From: an uncultured Myxococcales bacterium
GTDB taxonomy: Bacteria > Myxococcota_A > UBA9042 > DTJE01
DNA: 64,000 nt
Assembly (NCBI GenBank): GCA_903847405.1
Contig: CAINDP010000191.1
Location: forward strand, 1-64,000
Direction: 5' to 3'
Below the pieces are notes generated by a model that made no database searches, was not told the origin of the DNA, and saw nothing but the letters and a program-made list of their open reading frames with translations. The position numbers were made by a program, and so were the translations under genes. Below are positions 7,204-14,971 of this stretch, piece after piece. The first letter of the stretch is position 1. The number at the start of each line of letters is the position of its first letter.

Positions 7204-8436
7204 GTGGGATTCGACGTCGCCCGAGCAGCCCTGGAGGCCTCCACCAGCCGCCTGCCCTTCCTGGACCGGCTGCTGTCGTACCTCTATTTCGCGGAACTCG
7301 ACGTCCTGGAACAGTCCACGTGGGACCAGTTCGGCCACGGCGTGACCGTGCTGGGCCGGCGGGGACCCGACCGCCCCGGGCACGGCGTCATCCTGGCCGC
7401 TCCCCTGCCCCGTGCGTCCACTCTGGCAGGCTTGTCCCCCGATTCCGCCGACTTCGGCCGTGCCGGCACGCTGCTGGCGCTGGCCTGGGCGATCGCCTCG
7501 CTGGAGGACGCCGACCTGCGTGCGCCGGTGACCCTGGTCGCCGCCCGCCCCGATCCCCTGGGCACCGGCCTGCGATCGGTCCTGGATGACCGGTTCACCG
7601 TCGGCCACCAGGTGATCGCGGCCGCCGCCACCGGGCCGACGGCCACCACGCCGGGATGCGCGGTCGTGGTCGTGTCGGTCGAAACCCGGGTCCCGGTCCA
7701 TCCCCTGCGAGCCCCCCTGCGGGACGTGGTGACGCTGTCGTCCAACGGGGCCTCCGGCGCCGGCAGCATGTCGGCCCTGTCGTCCCTGGAATCGACGATC
7801 CGCGACCGATCCCTGGACCCCCTGGAACTGCATCCGGCCCCCGGGATCCACCTGGGCGAACCGGACCCGTTCCGCCTGACCGTGGGGCTCCGGACGGCGG
7901 ACTTCCAGGCTCCGACAGGCTGGCGGGTCGAAGCCCACCCGGGGTCCGTCGGCAGCACGGGTTCGTCCCTGGAGCGGGTCCTGGCCCTGGCCGCGACCCT
8001 CACGCGTGCCACCGCCGAGGTTGCGCGCGCCTGGGATCGGGCCGGGCTCCCTGCACCCGGGGAGTCCTTCCGGATCGTGGACCACGGCTCCATCGACCCG
8101 GCAACGACGCTGCTGGCCCTGGCGCTGCCGCCGGCGGCCGTCACCCCCCCGACGCTGGAAGACCTGGCCTCGCGCCTGTCCGCGGTGGACGGGATCCGCG
8201 CCACGGTGGTCCAGGTCTTCGTCCCGGCCCCTTCGGACGACGCTGCGGCCGGGGCTCCGGGACTGCTGGACACGGCGTCGTGCCTGCTGGGCTGCGTGCC
8301 GCGTGTCACGGCCCTCGGTCCCCGGCCCGGCGCGCTGTCCGACGACCCGCCCACCCGGATTCGCGAATGGGGCGTGCGATACCGGGATGAACTGCGCGCC
8401 GCCCTCCAGTCTCCCTCGCCCCGGAGGTCCCCATGA
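7204..8436 (+). CDS. Unknown protein coupled to NamZ, distant M20-peptidase resemblance
   Basis: A 410-residue soluble protein without signal peptide. I do not recognise the family with confidence. The order of elements (VTVLGRRG, VILAAPLP, DFGRAGTLLALAWAIA, LVAARPDPLGTGLRSVL) recalls the M20 metallopeptidase fold, but the metal-binding His, Asp and Glu positions are not evident. If related, it would be a non-catalytic or altered member. Its stop overlaps the start of the NamZ gene by four bases (ATGA), so the two products are translationally coupled and probably act in the same process, perhaps cell-wall fragment handling. That role is inference from context only. The start is GTG with no clear ribosome-binding site. 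Confidence 0.65.
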   Translation: MGFDVARAALEASTSRLPFLDRLLSYLYFAELDVLEQSTWDQFGHGVTVLGRRGPDRPGHGVILAAPLPRASTLAGLSPDSADFGRAGTLLALAWAIASLEDADLRAPVTLVAARPDPLGTGLRSVLDDRFTVGHQVIAAAATGPTATTPGCAVVVVSVETRVPVHPLRAPLRDVVTLSSNGASGAGSMSALSSLESTIRDRSLDPLELHPAPGIHLGEPDPFRLTVGLRTADFQAPTGWRVEAHPGSVGSTGSSLERVLALAATLTRATAEVARAWDRAGLPAPGESFRIVDHGSIDPATTLLALALPPAAVTPPTLEDLASRLSAVDGIRATVVQVFVPAPSDDAAAGAPGLLDTASCLLGCVPRVTALGPRPGALSDDPPTRIREWGVRYRDELRAALQSPSPRRSP

Positions 8437-9611
8437 TCCGCACCGGAGCCGATCGCCTGTGCGACGACGCCGCGCACCTGCTGGCGGGGCGCCACTGGGC
8501 CCTGGTCTGCCACGCGGCCTCGGTGGACGGGCACCTGCGGTACGTGTTCGACCGGCTGTGCGCCGACCCGCGGACCCGTCCCACGATGCTGCTGGCCCCC
8601 GAGCACGGCCTCTTCGGCGAACGCCTGTACATGGAATCGGTCCCGGACGCCCTGGACCCGTTCCTGGGCCTCCCGGTCGTCAGCCTCTACGGCGATGACG
8701 CGGACTCCCTGGCGCCCTCCCCTGCGCGCCTGTCGGGGCTGGACGCGGTGGTGGTGGACCTGCAGGACGTCGGCGCGCGCTACTACACGTACCTTGCGAC
8801 GTTGGCCATGACGATGGACGCCTGTGCCGCTGCCGGCGTGCCCGTCATCGTCGCCGATCGCCCGAACCCCATCGGGTGCAGTGCCGTCGAAGGCAACCTT
8901 CCGCGCGCACACCTGAAGTCCTTCGTGTCGTGGCTGCCCCTGCCGAACCGCCACGGCCTGACCGCCGGCGAAGCGGCCCGCCTGCACGCGTCCACGCTGC
9001 CGAACCTGGACCTGACGGTGCTGCCGTGCGAGGGACTGCGGCGCGACATGCTGTGGCCCGACACCGGCCTGCCCTTCGTGCTGCCGTCGCCGAACATCCC
9101 GACCTGGGAAACCGCCCTGGTCTACCCCGGGATGTGCCTGCTGGAGGGCACGAACCTCAGCGAGGGCCGCGGGACCACGATGCCGTTCTTCCTGTTCGGA
9201 GCGCCCTGGATCACGGATCCCCGGCGACTGGTGGCCACCCTGGACGCCTGGCGCCTTCCCGGCGTCGCCTTCCGCCCGACGTACTTCACCCCGAACCTGG
9301 ACAAGTGGGCCGGCCGGCGCTGTGGAGGCGCCCAACTGGTCGTGACGGACGTCCACGCCTTCCGGCCGCTGCTGGCCGGACTGGCGGTGCTGGCCGCCGC
9401 CATCGCCAACCACCCCGACGACTTCGCCCTGCGGACGGAAGCCTACGAATTCGTGCACGACCGTCTGGCCATGGACCTGCTGCTGGGCGACGAAGCCCTG
9501 CGGCAAGACCTCCTGGCCGGCGCCTCCCCCTGGGACCTCGCCGCGGCGATGGGCGCCGAAACCGCCGCCTTCGACGACGCCCGCCGGCCCTTCCTGCTGG
9601 TTCCGGACTGA
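8433..9611 (+). CDS. namZ: Exo-beta-N-acetylmuramidase NamZ-like (DUF1343)
   Basis: A 392-residue protein of the family formerly called DUF1343. Its characterised member, Bacillus NamZ (YbbC), releases terminal N-acetylmuramic acid from peptidoglycan fragments. Seen: ALVCHAASVDG, LLAPEHGLFG with the conserved Glu and His, DLQDVGARYYTY, a VADRPNPIG segment, PSPNIPTWETALVYPG, and LLEGTNLSEGRGTT, all strongly typical. No signal peptide is visible, which suggests a cytoplasmic recycling role or another export route. Translation is coupled to the preceding gene by ATGA. Length is slightly shorter than secreted homologues. Confidence 0.88.
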   Translation: MIRTGADRLCDDAAHLLAGRHWALVCHAASVDGHLRYVFDRLCADPRTRPTMLLAPEHGLFGERLYMESVPDALDPFLGLPVVSLYGDDADSLAPSPARLSGLDAVVVDLQDVGARYYTYLATLAMTMDACAAAGVPVIVADRPNPIGCSAVEGNLPRAHLKSFVSWLPLPNRHGLTAGEAARLHASTLPNLDLTVLPCEGLRRDMLWPDTGLPFVLPSPNIPTWETALVYPGMCLLEGTNLSEGRGTTMPFFLFGAPWITDPRRLVATLDAWRLPGVAFRPTYFTPNLDKWAGRRCGGAQLVVTDVHAFRPLLAGLAVLAAAIANHPDDFALRTEAYEFVHDRLAMDLLLGDEALRQDLLAGASPWDLAAAMGAETAAFDDARRPFLLVPD

Positions 9612-9633
9612 GGGTTTCCCGAAGCGCAAATCC

Positions 9634-9676
9634 AACTGTACTTGCACTATTGCCGAGGCTTCTTATAATTACAGTT
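9634..9676. promoter_or_regulatory. Inverted repeat bracketing the promoter, possible operator
   Basis: AACTGTA at 9634-9640 and TACAGTT at 9670-9676 are exact inverted copies flanking the -35 and -10 hexamers. This could bind a repressor, but no regulator gene is adjacent. Confidence 0.45.
9642..9669 (+). promoter_or_regulatory. Near-consensus sigma70 promoter of the ATPase/AlbA_2 operon
   Basis: TTGCAC (9642-9647), a 16-nt spacer and TATAAT (9664-9669) lie about 30 nt before the ATPase start. It is the most consensus-like -10 I saw in the window. Confidence 0.8.
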
Positions 9677-9697
9677 AGACTTGCTGCGGGTGGCGCA

Positions 9698-11071
9698 ATG
9701 CTTCTCGATGTCCTGTCGGAGCAGAATCCCCAGTGGCAGAACGACGGTCGCGGCCAGGGGCCGGGATTCGAGCGCGACATCGTCGCGAGGCTCGAGCCGA
9801 TTCTTTCCGGTCCGCTTCCGGGAGGGGTGCGCCGTGCCGTGGTTCTTTCGGGCCTGAGGAGATCCGGCAAGAGCACCGTGCTGCGCCAGTTGGCCTCGCG
9901 CCTCGCGCGCCAGGCGGAGTCCCCGACCGACGTCGTGTACCTCGATCTCGGCGATCCCCGGATTCTCGGCATCTCGGTCGAGGGACTGCTGGAAGCGACG
10001 GGGCTTCTTCGCACCCGACCCGCCACGCGAACCCTCTTGCTGGACGAGGTTGGCCACGACCGGGTGTGGCCGGACTCCATCAAGCGCCTCGTCGATCTGG
10101 GCCCGGACGCTCCCGGAATCATTGTCGCCGACTCGGCCGCTGCCCGGCTGCGGGCCAGTCCCGGTGGTGAAACGGCCGTCGGGCGCCGGATCGACCTCGA
10201 ACTCACTCCGATGACCCTCGGGGAAATCGCGCGCGCAAGTGGATTGTCCACCGGAGATCCCAGGGACGCAGACCCTCAGCGCCTGGGCATGCTCGCGGAC
10301 GAGTACCTGGTCCGCGGAGGGCTCCCTGAGGTAGCCCTTCCCGGCTCCCCCTCGTTCACCTCGGGCGACGCCTATCGAATCCTCCGGGAGGACGCAGCCA
10401 ATATCCTTGCCCTGGATGCCCCCCGGATCCGGGAGGTACGAGATGTCCATGCCCTCCGGCGTCTGTGGGCGATGCTGGCGCGCGGCGCCTCGCTCTCGCT
10501 GAACGTTGGCAAGATCGCGTCAGCACTGGAAATCTCACGCCAGACAGTCGAGCAGTTGCTTTCCGTCCTCAGCGAACTGTTCCTGGTCCGGGAAGTCCCG
10601 TGCCGTGGAGATGGTCCGGCCGCACCGATTCGGAATCCACCGAAGTGGCTGGTTGCCGACCCTGGAATCGCGGCGGCGCACCTGACCGAGAACGAGCGTG
10701 GTGACCCGGTGCACCGCGGGTATCTCGTCGAGTCGGCGGCCGCGTTACACCTCGCTGCCGCCCGGCAGGAGCTTCCCGGTCTGGAGATCACGTACGCCAG
10801 GGCCGCCAAGGAGATCGATTTCGTGGTTCGTCATCCGGACATTGAGACGGTCGGAATCGAGATGAAGCACTTCGACCGGCCCGCGGAGGCGGTGGACGAC
10901 GAGCGCGCGGCGCGGGTTGCCGCGGAGTTCGGGGTTCGGACACTGATTCGCGTCACGCGCCAACCCGTGCCACGCCTGGCAGTCGTTGCCGGGTGCACCA
11001 TTCGGACCGAGCCCCTCTGGCGATTCCTGAACTGGCCCGTACCCCTGTTGAAGGGAGGCATCGAGCCATGA
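9698..11071 (+). CDS. AAA ATPase with DUF4143-type C-terminal nuclease-like domain
   Basis: A 457-residue protein. Walker A GLRRSGKST is at 52-60 and Walker B LLLDEV at 113-118. The C-terminal third has KEIDFVV (371-377) and IEMK (387-390), matching the E-D...E-K pattern of the PD-(D/E)XK-like fold found in the DUF4143 ATPase family. Such proteins are common in accessory and defence-associated regions, but few have a defined function. A winged-helix-like segment (LEISRQTVEQLLSVLSEL) lies before the C-terminal domain, as is usual. The stop overlaps the next start as ATGA. Codon use is more relaxed than in neighbours (more CTT, GTT, ATT), suggesting acquisition by transfer. Whether the nuclease-like site is active is unknown. 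Confidence 0.85.
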   Translation: MLLDVLSEQNPQWQNDGRGQGPGFERDIVARLEPILSGPLPGGVRRAVVLSGLRRSGKSTVLRQLASRLARQAESPTDVVYLDLGDPRILGISVEGLLEATGLLRTRPATRTLLLDEVGHDRVWPDSIKRLVDLGPDAPGIIVADSAAARLRASPGGETAVGRRIDLELTPMTLGEIARASGLSTGDPRDADPQRLGMLADEYLVRGGLPEVALPGSPSFTSGDAYRILREDAANILALDAPRIREVRDVHALRRLWAMLARGASLSLNVGKIASALEISRQTVEQLLSVLSELFLVREVPCRGDGPAAPIRNPPKWLVADPGIAAAHLTENERGDPVHRGYLVESAAALHLAAARQELPGLEITYARAAKEIDFVVRHPDIETVGIEMKHFDRPAEAVDDERAARVAAEFGVRTLIRVTRQPVPRLAVVAGCTIRTEPLWRFLNWPVPLLKGGIEP

Positions 11072-12270
11072 GCGATCAGCCCCGGTCCTACCTGGGTGCT
11101 ATCGAGGACCGTACGCACGAGTTCAAGGGGCCTGATGCTTCCCTGGACGCGATTCTTGCAGCGGTCGTTGCGTTCCTGAACACCGACGGTGGCGAAGTGG
11201 TTGTCGGGGTCGTCGCCCCGGGTCCAGAGTCAGTCGCCAGCACAGAACCGGGCGTGGCGGAGCCTCACCTCCTGAAGGACCGGCTGGAGCAGGCGCTGCC
11301 TTCCCGGGTTGATCCACCTCCGCCCGCAGGGGCCACGGAGGTGACGGTCGTCCGAACGCCGGCCGGCAACGCGCTGGTCCGGATCGTCGCGCGGAAATCC
11401 GGGCAAGGACCTCACGCCCTCCGGCACGGCAACACCGCCACCTTCTGGGTACGGGAGGGGGCGCACCTGCGCGCACTCTCCATTGCAGAAACTTTCGCGC
11501 GCGTGCGCGAGGTCGACGGAGAGCCGGACGTCCTGGCACGCTCGGAGGAAGAGTTCCGATCCGGGATCGAGTGCGCGAGCGCCAGTGCGAACGCCAAGGC
11601 CCCCGCCCTGTTCGTGGGCTTCCACCCCGTTCGGGAACCGAAGTTTACCGAATCGGCGTGGACGCGCGTTCGCGAACGGATCGCGGAAGGTCTCCGCTCG
11701 GAAGCACCATTGGGCCTGCGCAGAAGCGGATTCACCTTCGCCCTCTGGCCGCACTGGGAGCCTGAGGTTCCCAGTGCACGCGACCGGGTCGCACTGGGAC
11801 GTGGGCGGCCGCTCTTCCGGATCGTGGAGGTGCAACGGAACGGCACGGTCTGGGGCGCCTGGAGCCATGAACTCGACTCGAAGACAGTCGTCACCCGCGC
11901 GGGTCTGAACGCGATCGCGATCCCCGCGATGGTCATCACCGAATTTGTCGTGTCCGTCGCGAAGTTGGCCATGCATTCGATGAATGAAGCAGGAACCACC
12001 GGGAATGTCGTAGGACGAGTCGCCCTGTTCTCGAGCACACCGGTGCTGTTGCATGGGCCCGGCGAACTGGCGACGTTCCATGCCCAGGCGGTAGGCCAGC
12101 CGCTGACCGATCTGCCGCTCGACTCCGGCCCCATCAGCATGGACAACGTGATGGACGAGTCTGCGTCCACGGATCTGGTCCGCGAGTTGCTGACCCGCTG
12201 GTTCGATCTGACCGGAAACCCGGACGCGTGGCGCGCCTTCCGCAGCCAAACCGGATGGCGATTCCCGTAG
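11068..12270 (+). CDS. Schlafen/AlbA_2-domain protein
   Basis: A 400-residue protein. Residues about 8-150 match the AlbA_2 (Schlafen AlbA-like) nucleic-acid-binding domain: an N-terminal HEFK (17-20), then AFLNTDGGEVVVGV (35-48), followed by a region with VRIVARKSGQGPHAL and FWVREG near its end. Residues 200-400 are unrecognised, with alternating hydrophobic stretches and no membrane segment. It is translationally coupled to the preceding ATPase and shares its atypical codon use, so the two likely form one functional module. Related domains occur in bacterial anti-phage and stress proteins and in eukaryotic Schlafens; a defence role here is inference. It converges on the lipoprotein gene ending at 12293. 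Confidence 0.8.
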   Translation: MSDQPRSYLGAIEDRTHEFKGPDASLDAILAAVVAFLNTDGGEVVVGVVAPGPESVASTEPGVAEPHLLKDRLEQALPSRVDPPPPAGATEVTVVRTPAGNALVRIVARKSGQGPHALRHGNTATFWVREGAHLRALSIAETFARVREVDGEPDVLARSEEEFRSGIECASASANAKAPALFVGFHPVREPKFTESAWTRVRERIAEGLRSEAPLGLRRSGFTFALWPHWEPEVPSARDRVALGRGRPLFRIVEVQRNGTVWGAWSHELDSKTVVTRAGLNAIAIPAMVITEFVVSVAKLAMHSMNEAGTTGNVVGRVALFSSTPVLLHGPGELATFHAQAVGQPLTDLPLDSGPISMDNVMDESASTDLVRELLTRWFDLTGNPDAWRAFRSQTGWRFP

Positions 12271-12292
12271 GTCGCCGGTTCAGATCCAACCC

Positions 12293-12847
12293 CTACTTCA
12301 CGCACTGGCCCGTGGTCGAATCGCAGGTCGTCCCCGTCAGCGCGGCGCAGTCGAGGTCCGCCTGGCACCTCGAGGTGCACTGCCGGGAAACCGTCCCGCA
12401 GATCGCGGTGCCGCCGCAGTTCGCGTCGGTGGTGCACTGGCAGGCTCCCTCGAAGCCGCAGGATCGCGCGTTGTTGGCGCAGTATGCGCTTTGGGACTCG
12501 CCCGGGTCCAGGCACGGCAATGCGCACACCTTGGCGGACGAGCACTTCTTCATGCTGGTGTTGTACCAGGTCTTGCAGTCGTCGTCGGTGTCGCAGGGCA
12601 GGTAGAACAGCCCCGGAATGAAGCACTGGCCGGTCGCCAGGTTGCAGACCTCCTTGTCGGACTGCAGGGGATCCGTGAAACAGTCGCGATGGCTGGTGCA
12701 CGTCGTCGGGCCGACCGCGTCCACGCCTACGTCCGCATCCACCTGCAACTCCGAATCCGACGTGGCGTCCGGCTGCGCCGTGGAATTCGACGCATCGCAG
12801 GCCACGAACAGCGCCGGCAGGACGAAGAGGGCGGTACACCGGTTCAT
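12293..12847 (-). CDS. Cysteine-rich lipoprotein
   Basis: A 184-residue exported protein of unknown function. The N-terminus MNRCTALFVLPALFVACDAS is a lipoprotein signal with the modified Cys in FVAC. An acidic, low-complexity linker follows (DSELQVDADVGVDA), then about 20 cysteines in EGF-like or Dickkopf-like spacing (CTSHRDC, CDTDDDC, CTTDANC, CQADLDC). Such modules are common in Myxococcota surface proteins and may mediate adhesion or be disulphide-stabilised spacers. The ATG at 12847 has AGGAG upstream and a plausible promoter at 12910-12937. It converges on the AlbA_2 gene with a 22-bp gap. Confidence 0.8.
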   Translation of the reverse strand: MNRCTALFVLPALFVACDASNSTAQPDATSDSELQVDADVGVDAVGPTTCTSHRDCFTDPLQSDKEVCNLATGQCFIPGLFYLPCDTDDDCKTWYNTSMKKCSSAKVCALPCLDPGESQSAYCANNARSCGFEGACQCTTDANCGGTAICGTVSRQCTSRCQADLDCAALTGTTCDSTTGQCVK

Positions 12848-12909
12848 TGGGGTCACTCCTCGCAAGGGTTTTCAGCCATCGCCGGGTCGATCGCGCCGGC
12901 AGGCCGCGG

Positions 12910-12937
12910 TTTATCACACTCGTCACCGCCGTGCCAA
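12910..12937 (-). promoter_or_regulatory. Putative promoter of the cysteine-rich lipoprotein
   Basis: On the minus strand TTGGCA and GATAAA are spaced by 16 nt, and the -10 is followed by CCGCGG. The vWA lipoprotein gene at 27194 has the same GATAAAC ... CCGCGG arrangement and a leader of similar length (about 55 nt). Confidence 0.5.
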
Positions 12938-13057
12938 GCCGGATCGGCGCGACGGGTCTTCGAAAGGTCCTCTTCCCTCCAGGAACATTCCTGCCGGGTT
13001 TGCGCAGCGGGGGGGTGAATCGGTACTGTCTACCCAGTAGCGAATCGGGAGGGTGTC

Positions 13058-14329
13058 ATGGGCAGAAGAACGGTCCAGGCCGCGTGGTTCCTGGCGGCCC
13101 TGGCGATGGCGTCCTGCGGAAGTGACACAGGGACCTCGTCGGATGCCGATCCGGGCGCGCAGGACACGGCGGACGTCGCGGACTCGCCGAATGGCGGAGT
13201 CCCCGAATGGTGCTCGGCGTTGCCGGCGTGCGAAGGATCGATGAGGGACTGTCCGGACCACTGCACGCGCTATACCGCGACCTGCTGTGCGATGGACGTT
13301 CCCCCAAACTACCAGCGGGGCGACGCGGCGTTCTGCGTGTGCCCGGACGTGCTGGAACCCGGCCTCGACTATGGGCCAACCCCTGACTGCTGCGGCCTCT
13401 GCGTGAAGGAGTGCGGAGCGCACGTTTGCGGCCCGTCCAACTGCTGGGAGTATTCCTGCGGCGAATGCCCTGACTCCACCACGACCTGCGTCCAGGGGGC
13501 ATGTGAACCGAACTGCGATTGGCCGGTGTTCAAGGCGGACATCGACTGGGGTCCGGCGGGAGCCATCTCCTCGCTGACGACCCCGACCGATGCCGCCGTC
13601 GTCAAGTCGCTGTGCTTCGACTACACCGGCGACGGCCTGGGCGACAACGGCCTCAAGGGCCTGGCGGGGCAGGTCAACGGCCCCCTCGCCGACGCGGTCA
13701 GCGGGGGGGCGATCGCGATCCTGTTCGAACTGCCGGGTGTGACCGACTTCGCCAACACGGGGTCCTTCCAGTTGAACGGCCTGCTGGGCAAATCCGCGGC
13801 TACGCCGGTGGCGACTACGGGCGACTTCACCGTCCAGGAAGCCTCGTACATCACGGAAGTCTGCCAGCCCATGATCTACTTCAAGAACGCTTCAATCACC
13901 GCCGGCGCCCTGGCCGCCGGTCCGTCCGAGTTCCAGTTGTCCGTCCCGGTCTCCGACGGTGTGGTGATCGACGCAACCGTCCTCCAGGCGAAGATCAAGG
14001 CCGACGTCACCGCCGGCGCAACGACTGCCGGCTTCGAGGCGACGAACGGCGTCCTGTCGGGCATCCTGACCAAACAGGAACTGGAAACGGCGCTGGCCAG
14101 ACTGCAGGCCACCTGCGACGCGGCACCAGCCAATGCCAAACCCGACTTCTGCAGCTACCTGAAGGTCGCAACCTCGGCGATGAACCTGCTGTTCGATCTG
14201 CACCAGGTCGGTGACGGGACCTTCGTCGCCAAGACGAAGGAACTCCCCGGCGACGCCGCGTCCCTGTGCCTGACCTTCACCCTGTCCCAAGCGAAGATCA
14301 CGGGCTTCGAGCCATCCGCGGCGCCCTGA
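13058..14329 (+). CDS. Cysteine-rich secreted lipoprotein
   Basis: A 423-residue protein with a lipoprotein signal (FLAALAMASCGSD, Cys at about residue 20) and an acidic linker. A cysteine-rich domain spans about residues 50-150 and has CC pairs (ATCCAM, PDCCGLC). The remaining C-terminal region of about 270 residues is rich in beta-forming stretches and carries few cysteines. It probably sits on the outer membrane. No catalytic motif is visible and I do not recognise the family. ATG at 13058 follows GGGAGGG. It stands alone between the lipoprotein on the other strand and nadD, 63 bp upstream of the latter. Confidence 0.78.
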   Translation: MGRRTVQAAWFLAALAMASCGSDTGTSSDADPGAQDTADVADSPNGGVPEWCSALPACEGSMRDCPDHCTRYTATCCAMDVPPNYQRGDAAFCVCPDVLEPGLDYGPTPDCCGLCVKECGAHVCGPSNCWEYSCGECPDSTTTCVQGACEPNCDWPVFKADIDWGPAGAISSLTTPTDAAVVKSLCFDYTGDGLGDNGLKGLAGQVNGPLADAVSGGAIAILFELPGVTDFANTGSFQLNGLLGKSAATPVATTGDFTVQEASYITEVCQPMIYFKNASITAGALAAGPSEFQLSVPVSDGVVIDATVLQAKIKADVTAGATTAGFEATNGVLSGILTKQELETALARLQATCDAAPANAKPDFCSYLKVATSAMNLLFDLHQVGDGTFVAKTKELPGDAASLCLTFTLSQAKITGFEPSAAP

Positions 14330-14392
14330 GCCCGCGCTACGCGTCGGTCCGGACTTGAGGTAGTATTCGGTGCCCGAATCCGGAGCCCATTC

Positions 14393-14971
14393 GTGCCCAC
14401 AGCCCGCGCCGTGAAGGACATCGCGCTGTTCGGGGGGTCCTTCGACCCACCCCATTGCGCCCACGTGATGGCGATGTCGTACGTACTCACCTGCACGCCC
14501 TGCACGGAAGCCTGGGTCCTCCCGGTGTTCCACCACGCCTTCGCCAAGGACAGCGCGCCCTTCGACACCCGCCTGGCCCTGTGCCGCGCCGCCTTCGCCT
14601 GCTTCGGCCGCCGGGTCCGCGTGCTGGACGTCGAGTCCCGCCTCCCGTCGCCCTCCTACACCGTGGACACCCTGCGGCACCTGACACGACGCCACCCGGG
14701 GGCCCGTTTCCACCTGGTCGTCGGAACCGACATCCTGGCCGAAACCGACCGCTGGCGCGACTTCCCGGAAGTGACGCGACTGGCCCGCATGCTGATCCTG
14801 AACCGGGGCGCGATCGACCCCCGGGCCGTGGGACCGGTCTTCCCCCCGGTGTCCTCGTCGGCCATCCGGGCGGACCTCGCCGCCGGTCGGGACGTTTCCG
14901 ACCGCGTCCCGGCGTCCGTCCTGGACCTTGTCCGCAAGGCGGGCCTGTACGGCAGCGGGGTGCCCGCATGA
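14393..14971 (+). CDS. nadD: Nicotinate-nucleotide adenylyltransferase
   Basis: A 192-residue nucleotidyltransferase that adenylates nicotinate mononucleotide in NAD synthesis. Seen: ALFGGSFDPPHCAHVMAM, the (H/T)xGH-type site where Ala replaces the usual Gly; LPSPSYTVDTL; VVGTDILAETDRW; and PVSSSAIRADL, the second ATP-binding motif. Length fits NadD. The start is GTG at 14393 with GGAG upstream. Its stop overlaps the next start by ATGA. The Gly-to-Ala change in the first motif is unusual but conservative. Cytoplasmic. Confidence 0.9.
   Translation: MPTARAVKDIALFGGSFDPPHCAHVMAMSYVLTCTPCTEAWVLPVFHHAFAKDSAPFDTRLALCRAAFACFGRRVRVLDVESRLPSPSYTVDTLRHLTRRHPGARFHLVVGTDILAETDRWRDFPEVTRLARMLILNRGAIDPRAVGPVFPPVSSSAIRADLAAGRDVSDRVPASVLDLVRKAGLYGSGVPA

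Follow-up and report, generated by a model that had tools for sequence, protein, structure and literature searches.

A recurrent DUF4143 ATPase–Schlafen operon that is probably an uncatalogued phage-defence-type unit

Described relatives of the two proteins

PDC-S01, an ATPase fused to a PD-(D/E)XK domain, is a prevalent single-gene defence candidate that awaits experimental validation (PMC12988326). DUF4143/PDC-S01 ATPases reportedly rank fourth in frequency among the candidate defences of prokaryotes (PMC12988326). PMC12839542, citing a preprint, describes Schlafen-linked systems as acting against phage through cleavage of tRNA.

We identified an operon that joins these two kinds of protein in the window, a 64,000-nucleotide stretch of contig CAINDP010000191.1 from an uncultured Myxococcales bacterium. 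Gene A matches the PDC-S01 models (4e-34; to 9e-57 in other pairs) and has the same architecture. Unlike the catalogued single-gene PDC-S01, however, it is followed by an overlapping Schlafen gene in six of six loci, and most of the paired A copies are without the nuclease lysine. Gene B shares the AlbA_2 core, the E..E-F-K residues and R129 with bacterial Schlafen and AlbA_2 proteins (PF04326; SLFN11/13/14; CbCash, 9ylu) but is partnered with a DUF4143 ATPase and has no match in PADLOC-DB 2.0. Whereas BREX-linked Schlafens carry a histidine-kinase/wHTH part, B has a C-terminal domain of its own. A is also related to MNS/STAND-type ATPases (SSO1545, PABY2304; NLR/CED-4) through a predicted AAA and winged-helix fold, a low-identity fold match only, and differs from them in having a PD-(D/E)XK tail and no sensor repeats.

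Other DUF4143 ATPases have effector-type or restriction-type neighbours. Two NPWW-family DUF4143 ATPases have a SIR2_2 gene downstream on their own strand: one in genome G015 (L068, 1547-5233; Dsr1-like, gap of 9 nt) and one in Stella vacuolata (L085, 5977-9289; gap of 70 nt). These resemble the present pair in having the same kind of ATPase ahead of an effector-type gene, and are perhaps another ATPase-effector pairing. They differ in having a gap of 9-70 nt instead of an overlap and an NADase-type effector, and there are only two cases. Another NPWW DUF4143 ATPase lies within a DUF1156/HmaB-type methylase locus (G156; L057, 2036-10025), so that here a PDC-S01 gene sits in surroundings of a defence type, and inspection of sequences placed DUF4143 relatives beside restriction-type genes at L063 and L108. 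The SIR2, Hma-type methylase and restriction-type neighbours are consistent with a general link between DUF4143 ATPases and defence.

The fixed A-B pair has no model in PADLOC-DB 2.0, and DUF4143 and Schlafen were not found together in the literature searched, although preprints may describe the exact pair. Each half of the pair is of a known kind, and the fixed pairing is probably the new part.

Layout, recurrence and acquisition of the pair

The pair and its upstream region comprise the following features.

9698–11071, + strand: gene A, AAA_14/DUF4143 (PDC-S01-type) ATPase, 457 aa (Pfam, PADLOC, AF2)
11068–12270, + strand: gene B, Schlafen/AlbA_2 protein, 400 aa (SLFN_AlbA_2 match, homologs)
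11068–11071, + strand: ATGA overlap of A and B, 4 nt, shared by the stop of A and the start of B
9642–9669, + strand: promoter-like site, -35 TTGCAC, 16-nt spacer, -10 TATAAT

A and B are two intact ORFs that overlap as the original prediction had described, and the ATGA arrangement likely couples their translation. A longer ORF starting at 8876 was ruled out as gene A, as paired homologs start at the equivalent of 9698; a NP[W/Q]W motif near the N-terminus is common to these paired A homologs. The promoter had been called near-consensus, a description that holds for one half of the site only. TATAAT at 9664-9669 is a perfect -10 element 28 nt upstream of the ATG of A and the sole copy in the window, where 0.37 would be expected. 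The -35 element (9642-9647), however, has just three of six consensus bases and a sigma-70 scan did not report a promoter at 9642-9669. We therefore reject the near-consensus label.

We identified the A-B pair in five genomes in addition to the window genome (G153, G048, G957, G997 and G955). The six loci span at least two phyla, the window genome's own and Planctomycetota. The A-then-B order and the 4-nt overlap are identical in all six, the overlap being GTGA in G955. In G153, matches to A and B coincide in a sample of 379 genomes from the window phylum. The G048 pair was seen on inspecting the top A matches, and its ORFs are identical to those of SXRM01000240.1. A B profile search of the phylum of a Planctomycetia genome identified G957 (9e-59), G997 (7e-47) and G955 (2.9e-33), whose sequences lay outside the set that built the profile; all three matches are near-full-length and directly behind an A gene. 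At the G955 locus (L253, 4757-6531), only the final 198 residues of A remain, the ATPase half being gone, while B is intact with a GTG start; from its sequence, this appears to be a decaying pair. The A-B operon is almost certainly real and conserved, and the co-occurrence in other genomes on which the original prediction depended is borne out.

The pair occupies a narrow part of both families. Among the lower-scoring B relatives, 15 proteins from several phyla, none adjoins an A gene. At approximately 80 other loci of the wider A family, AlbA_2 neighbours are lacking and the ATPase gene is mostly solo, without a coupled gene. Close B relatives were absent from the sampled same-genus and same-family genomes, and an initial contig scan with P0002 gave no match. 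The B profile had no paired-type match in 246 actinobacterial, 299 proteobacterial and 129 acidobacterial genomes, in which gene context was inspected for the better matches only; this suggests that the pair is rare and patchy. B had no match in plasmid, phage and IMG/VR viral collections, nor A in viral contigs. A match of L012 to the B C-terminus (34%, residues 276-376) was discarded as chance, being antisense to a gene for a Cys-rich protein.

In a B tree, the paired proteins group in a single clade that excludes the solo proteins (support 99/97). The A tree unites four of the paired copies in a clade but does not place the window copy, which sits on a very long branch (4.8); a single origin of paired A is not rejected (AU p 0.48). 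Among the paired members, the window A and B have diverged furthest, with long branches in each case.

Several observations indicate how the pair came to lie in the window genome. The relevant features are as follows.

9623–14355, no strand: insertion between NamZ and NadD, absent from same-genus G001 and G002
12293–12865, - strand: lipoprotein-like gene inside the insertion
13058–14329, + strand: lipoprotein-like gene inside the insertion

The insertion has a NamZ gene (8433-9611) upstream and a NadD gene (14393-14971) downstream. Both genes are present in 13 of 13 relatives searched, in most of them approximately 60-150 bp apart (102 bp in G001, 128 bp in G002). G001 DNA, 82% identical, aligns to the window through 9622 and resumes at 14356, with 48 bp between. 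As NamZ and NadD are adjacent in relatives, 9623-14355 is best described as an insertion, and most simply this 4.7-kb stretch was gained by the window lineage. When the 24 window genes are ranked by codon-likelihood deviation, A and B come out lowest (-0.54 and -0.46; the next is -0.24), and their GC3 is 0.77 versus ~0.91; the earlier claim of codon use unlike the surroundings is thus confirmed. Together, the codon and insertion evidence is consistent with horizontal acquisition.

The two lipoprotein-like genes encode secreted or lipoprotein-like, Cys-rich proteins without a Pfam match, and their codons are more host-like than those of A and B. Neither occurs beside the other pair loci, and we treat them as bystanders. 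The window neighbours of the pair are otherwise housekeeping or secreted-protein genes (NamZ, NadD, HAD), in agreement with the housekeeping-type surroundings first noted, and housekeeping genes also adjoin the pair in G957 and G997. PADLOC had no match among ten window genes, eight of them from the near neighbourhood, and the pair has no defence-island context there.

In a further relative, G012, an unrelated multihaem-cytochrome-like gene occupies the gap between NamZ and NadD (L299, 1814-4487), implying that the gap accepts insertions. The NamZ-NadD gap (window 9612-14392) is a possible insertion-tolerant site in this family.

Domains and conserved residues

Four domains can be placed on the two genes.

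9830–10228, + strand: AAA_14 ATPase domain of A, residues 45-177 (Walker A GLRRSGKS, Walker B LLLDE, R163)
10706–10957, + strand: PD-(D/E)XK-fold tail of A, residues 337-420 (E345, E372-x-D374, E388-M-K390)
11104–11475, + strand: AlbA_2/Schlafen core of B, residues 13-136 (E13, E18-F-K20, R129)
11518–12267, + strand: C-terminal domain of B, residues ~151-400, unnamed (HHalign with solo AlbA_2 C-termini)

A matches AAA_14 (7e-18) and DUF4143 (3.8e-21) in Pfam, which establishes the AAA ATPase assignment proposed from the letters. Its match to the PADLOC PDC-S01 models (4.2e-34) covers residues 46-381, the other four full-length paired copies match them at 4e-42 to 9e-57, and PADLOC assigns PDC-S01 to every A copy tested. 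An AlphaFold2 model built from 38 sequences (pLDDT 87.1) shows A as a predicted AAA+ ATPase followed by a winged helix and a tail with the element order of a PD-(D/E)XK fold. The modelled tail has an alpha-beta-beta-beta-alpha-beta topology (helix 337-356; strands 363-368, 372-379 and 382-389; helix 398-410; strand 415-420) with E345, D374, E388 and K390 at the expected positions, and so upholds the PD-(D/E)XK-like tail that had been claimed. In Foldseek searches, the model resembles the archaeal ATPases PABY2304 and SSO1545, ORC/Cdc6 and NLR/CED-4 STANDs (E 1e-5 to 1e-6 and TMq about 0.4 for 2qen, 2fna and CED-4/NLR). Among PDB sequences, the A profile also hit designed PPR proteins and RecA, which we set aside as spurious or generic P-loop matches.

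K58 of Walker A, D116 and E117 of Walker B, R163, E345, E372 and D374 are invariant in the 38 relatives. The catalytic lysine after E388 behaves differently: the window copy has K, five of the six paired copies have T, and 33 of 36 other relatives have K (Fisher p 0.0004, ignoring shared ancestry).

B matches SLFN_AlbA_2 (PF04326) over residues 13-136 with 1.3e-7 and 32.6 bits against a gathering cut-off of 25.3, so the Schlafen-type domain of the original prediction is secure. Each of the eight aligned B sequences hits PF04326 at E <= 0.1, with a best value of 1.4e-12, and the B profile matches structures of SLFN14, SLFN5 and bacterial CbCash at E about 1e-4. E13 and R129 are kept in all six paired B proteins and E18-F/Y-K20 in five, the G048 copy having lost E18 and K20. 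The third Schlafen acidic position, after the GV strand, is absent in the window B and is E in G153, G957 and G997. From these residues, catalysis by B is not certain for every copy.

The remainder of B had been described as a 200-residue unrecognised C-terminus. It does lack a named family, with no Pfam (eight relatives), PADLOC or NCBIfam match, but it is longer, approximately 250 residues, and is conserved also in solo AlbA_2 proteins. HHalign of paired against solo C-termini gave E 6.5e-7 and a probability of 92%, so the two are homologous and represent a conserved unnamed domain of AlbA_2 proteins. An AlphaFold model of B from two sequences has low confidence (pLDDT 41.4) and thus gives no fold support for the C-terminal domain or an A-B interface.

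Possible function of the pair

The A-B operon is probably an uncatalogued phage-defence-type unit, judging from the relatives and context described above. A defence-type role is suggested by the membership of A in the candidate PDC-S01 and by reports of antiphage activity in bacterial Schlafens. The insertion, the foreign codons, the patchy spread across phyla and the presence of HipBA or NTase-HEPN at two loci point the same way. Several observations count against it. Given the abundance of DUF4143 ATPases, belonging to PDC-S01 is a poor guide to function, PADLOC finds no neighbours at the window, and no phage, plasmid or viral copies were detected. The defence-type module of the original prediction is thus supported in its recurrence across at least two phyla and its signs of acquisition, but not by defence neighbours or mobile copies. 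Known defence genes near the pair were likewise expected; PADLOC finds none at the window, and elsewhere only two pairs have toxin-antitoxin-type genes beside them: HipBA in G153 and NTase-HEPN in G048, where a PDC-S09-type NTase lies within 0.5 kb of B. On balance, there is about an even chance that the two genes together make up a single horizontally moving defence or conflict unit in which A is the switch and B the effector.

Because the nuclease site of A is mostly disarmed and the core of B mostly kept, we infer that A would act as an ATP-driven switch and B as an RNase effector. A would sense intrusion through nucleic acid bound by its winged helix or nuclease-fold tail, and ATP binding or hydrolysis would then release or activate B. 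The Schlafen core of B would cut RNA, tRNA being the precedent, and halt translation, leading to abortive infection. The C-terminal domain could hold B to A or to its substrate. Cutting would have passed from A to B where the nuclease site of A is without its lysine; the window A, with the lysine kept, may still bind or cut DNA. We propose only tentatively the fuller reading, that a STAND-like DUF4143 ATPase, its own nuclease usually disarmed, controls a dedicated Schlafen RNase and that the two make up an immune system not described before.

A reversal of these roles, with B as a nucleic-acid-binding or specificity subunit and the PD-(D/E)XK tail of A cutting the invading DNA to which B points, is unlikely. 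AlbA_2 carries a DNA-binding annotation and occurs as a fusion with some Argonautes (PMC6299218), and the window A keeps the full E345-D374-E388-x-K390 set; in each of the five other paired A copies, however, T replaces the catalytic K, and five of six B proteins keep the Schlafen residues.

We consider it quite unlikely that the pair is a toxin-antitoxin or selfish stabilising module without phage specificity, with B a toxic RNase and A its neutraliser. The two-gene overlap, the sparse distribution, the single-site insertion and the toxin-antitoxin-type genes that adjoin two pairs would fit such a module. A large ATPase would be unusual as an antitoxin, though, the ATPase gene comes first, and solo B relatives persist without A.

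A host regulatory or nucleic-acid-maintenance pair with no part in conflict is improbable: its absence from two genomes of the same genus and from every sampled genome of the same family, its foreign codon use and its patchy occurrence in distant phyla outweigh the housekeeping neighbours in the window, G957 and G997 and the lack of PADLOC genes nearby. Finally, chance placement of a common DUF4143 gene beside an AlbA_2 gene, conceivable given how common both domain families are, is ruled out for practical purposes by recurrence at six loci that share gene order and overlap, of which a search with the B profile only supplied three, and by a B clade exclusive to pairs.

A switch-effector reading of the operon has consequences for both families. 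The operon represents a branch of PDC-S01 welded to a recognisable effector, which offers a testable readout: does A control the RNase of B? For bacterial Schlafens, which are related to the antiviral human SLFN11/13, the pair would bring a new partner of the switch type. If the reading is true, the very common PDC-S01 candidate would be linked to a defined effector, and bacteria would possess an immune unit built from a switch ATPase and a Schlafen.
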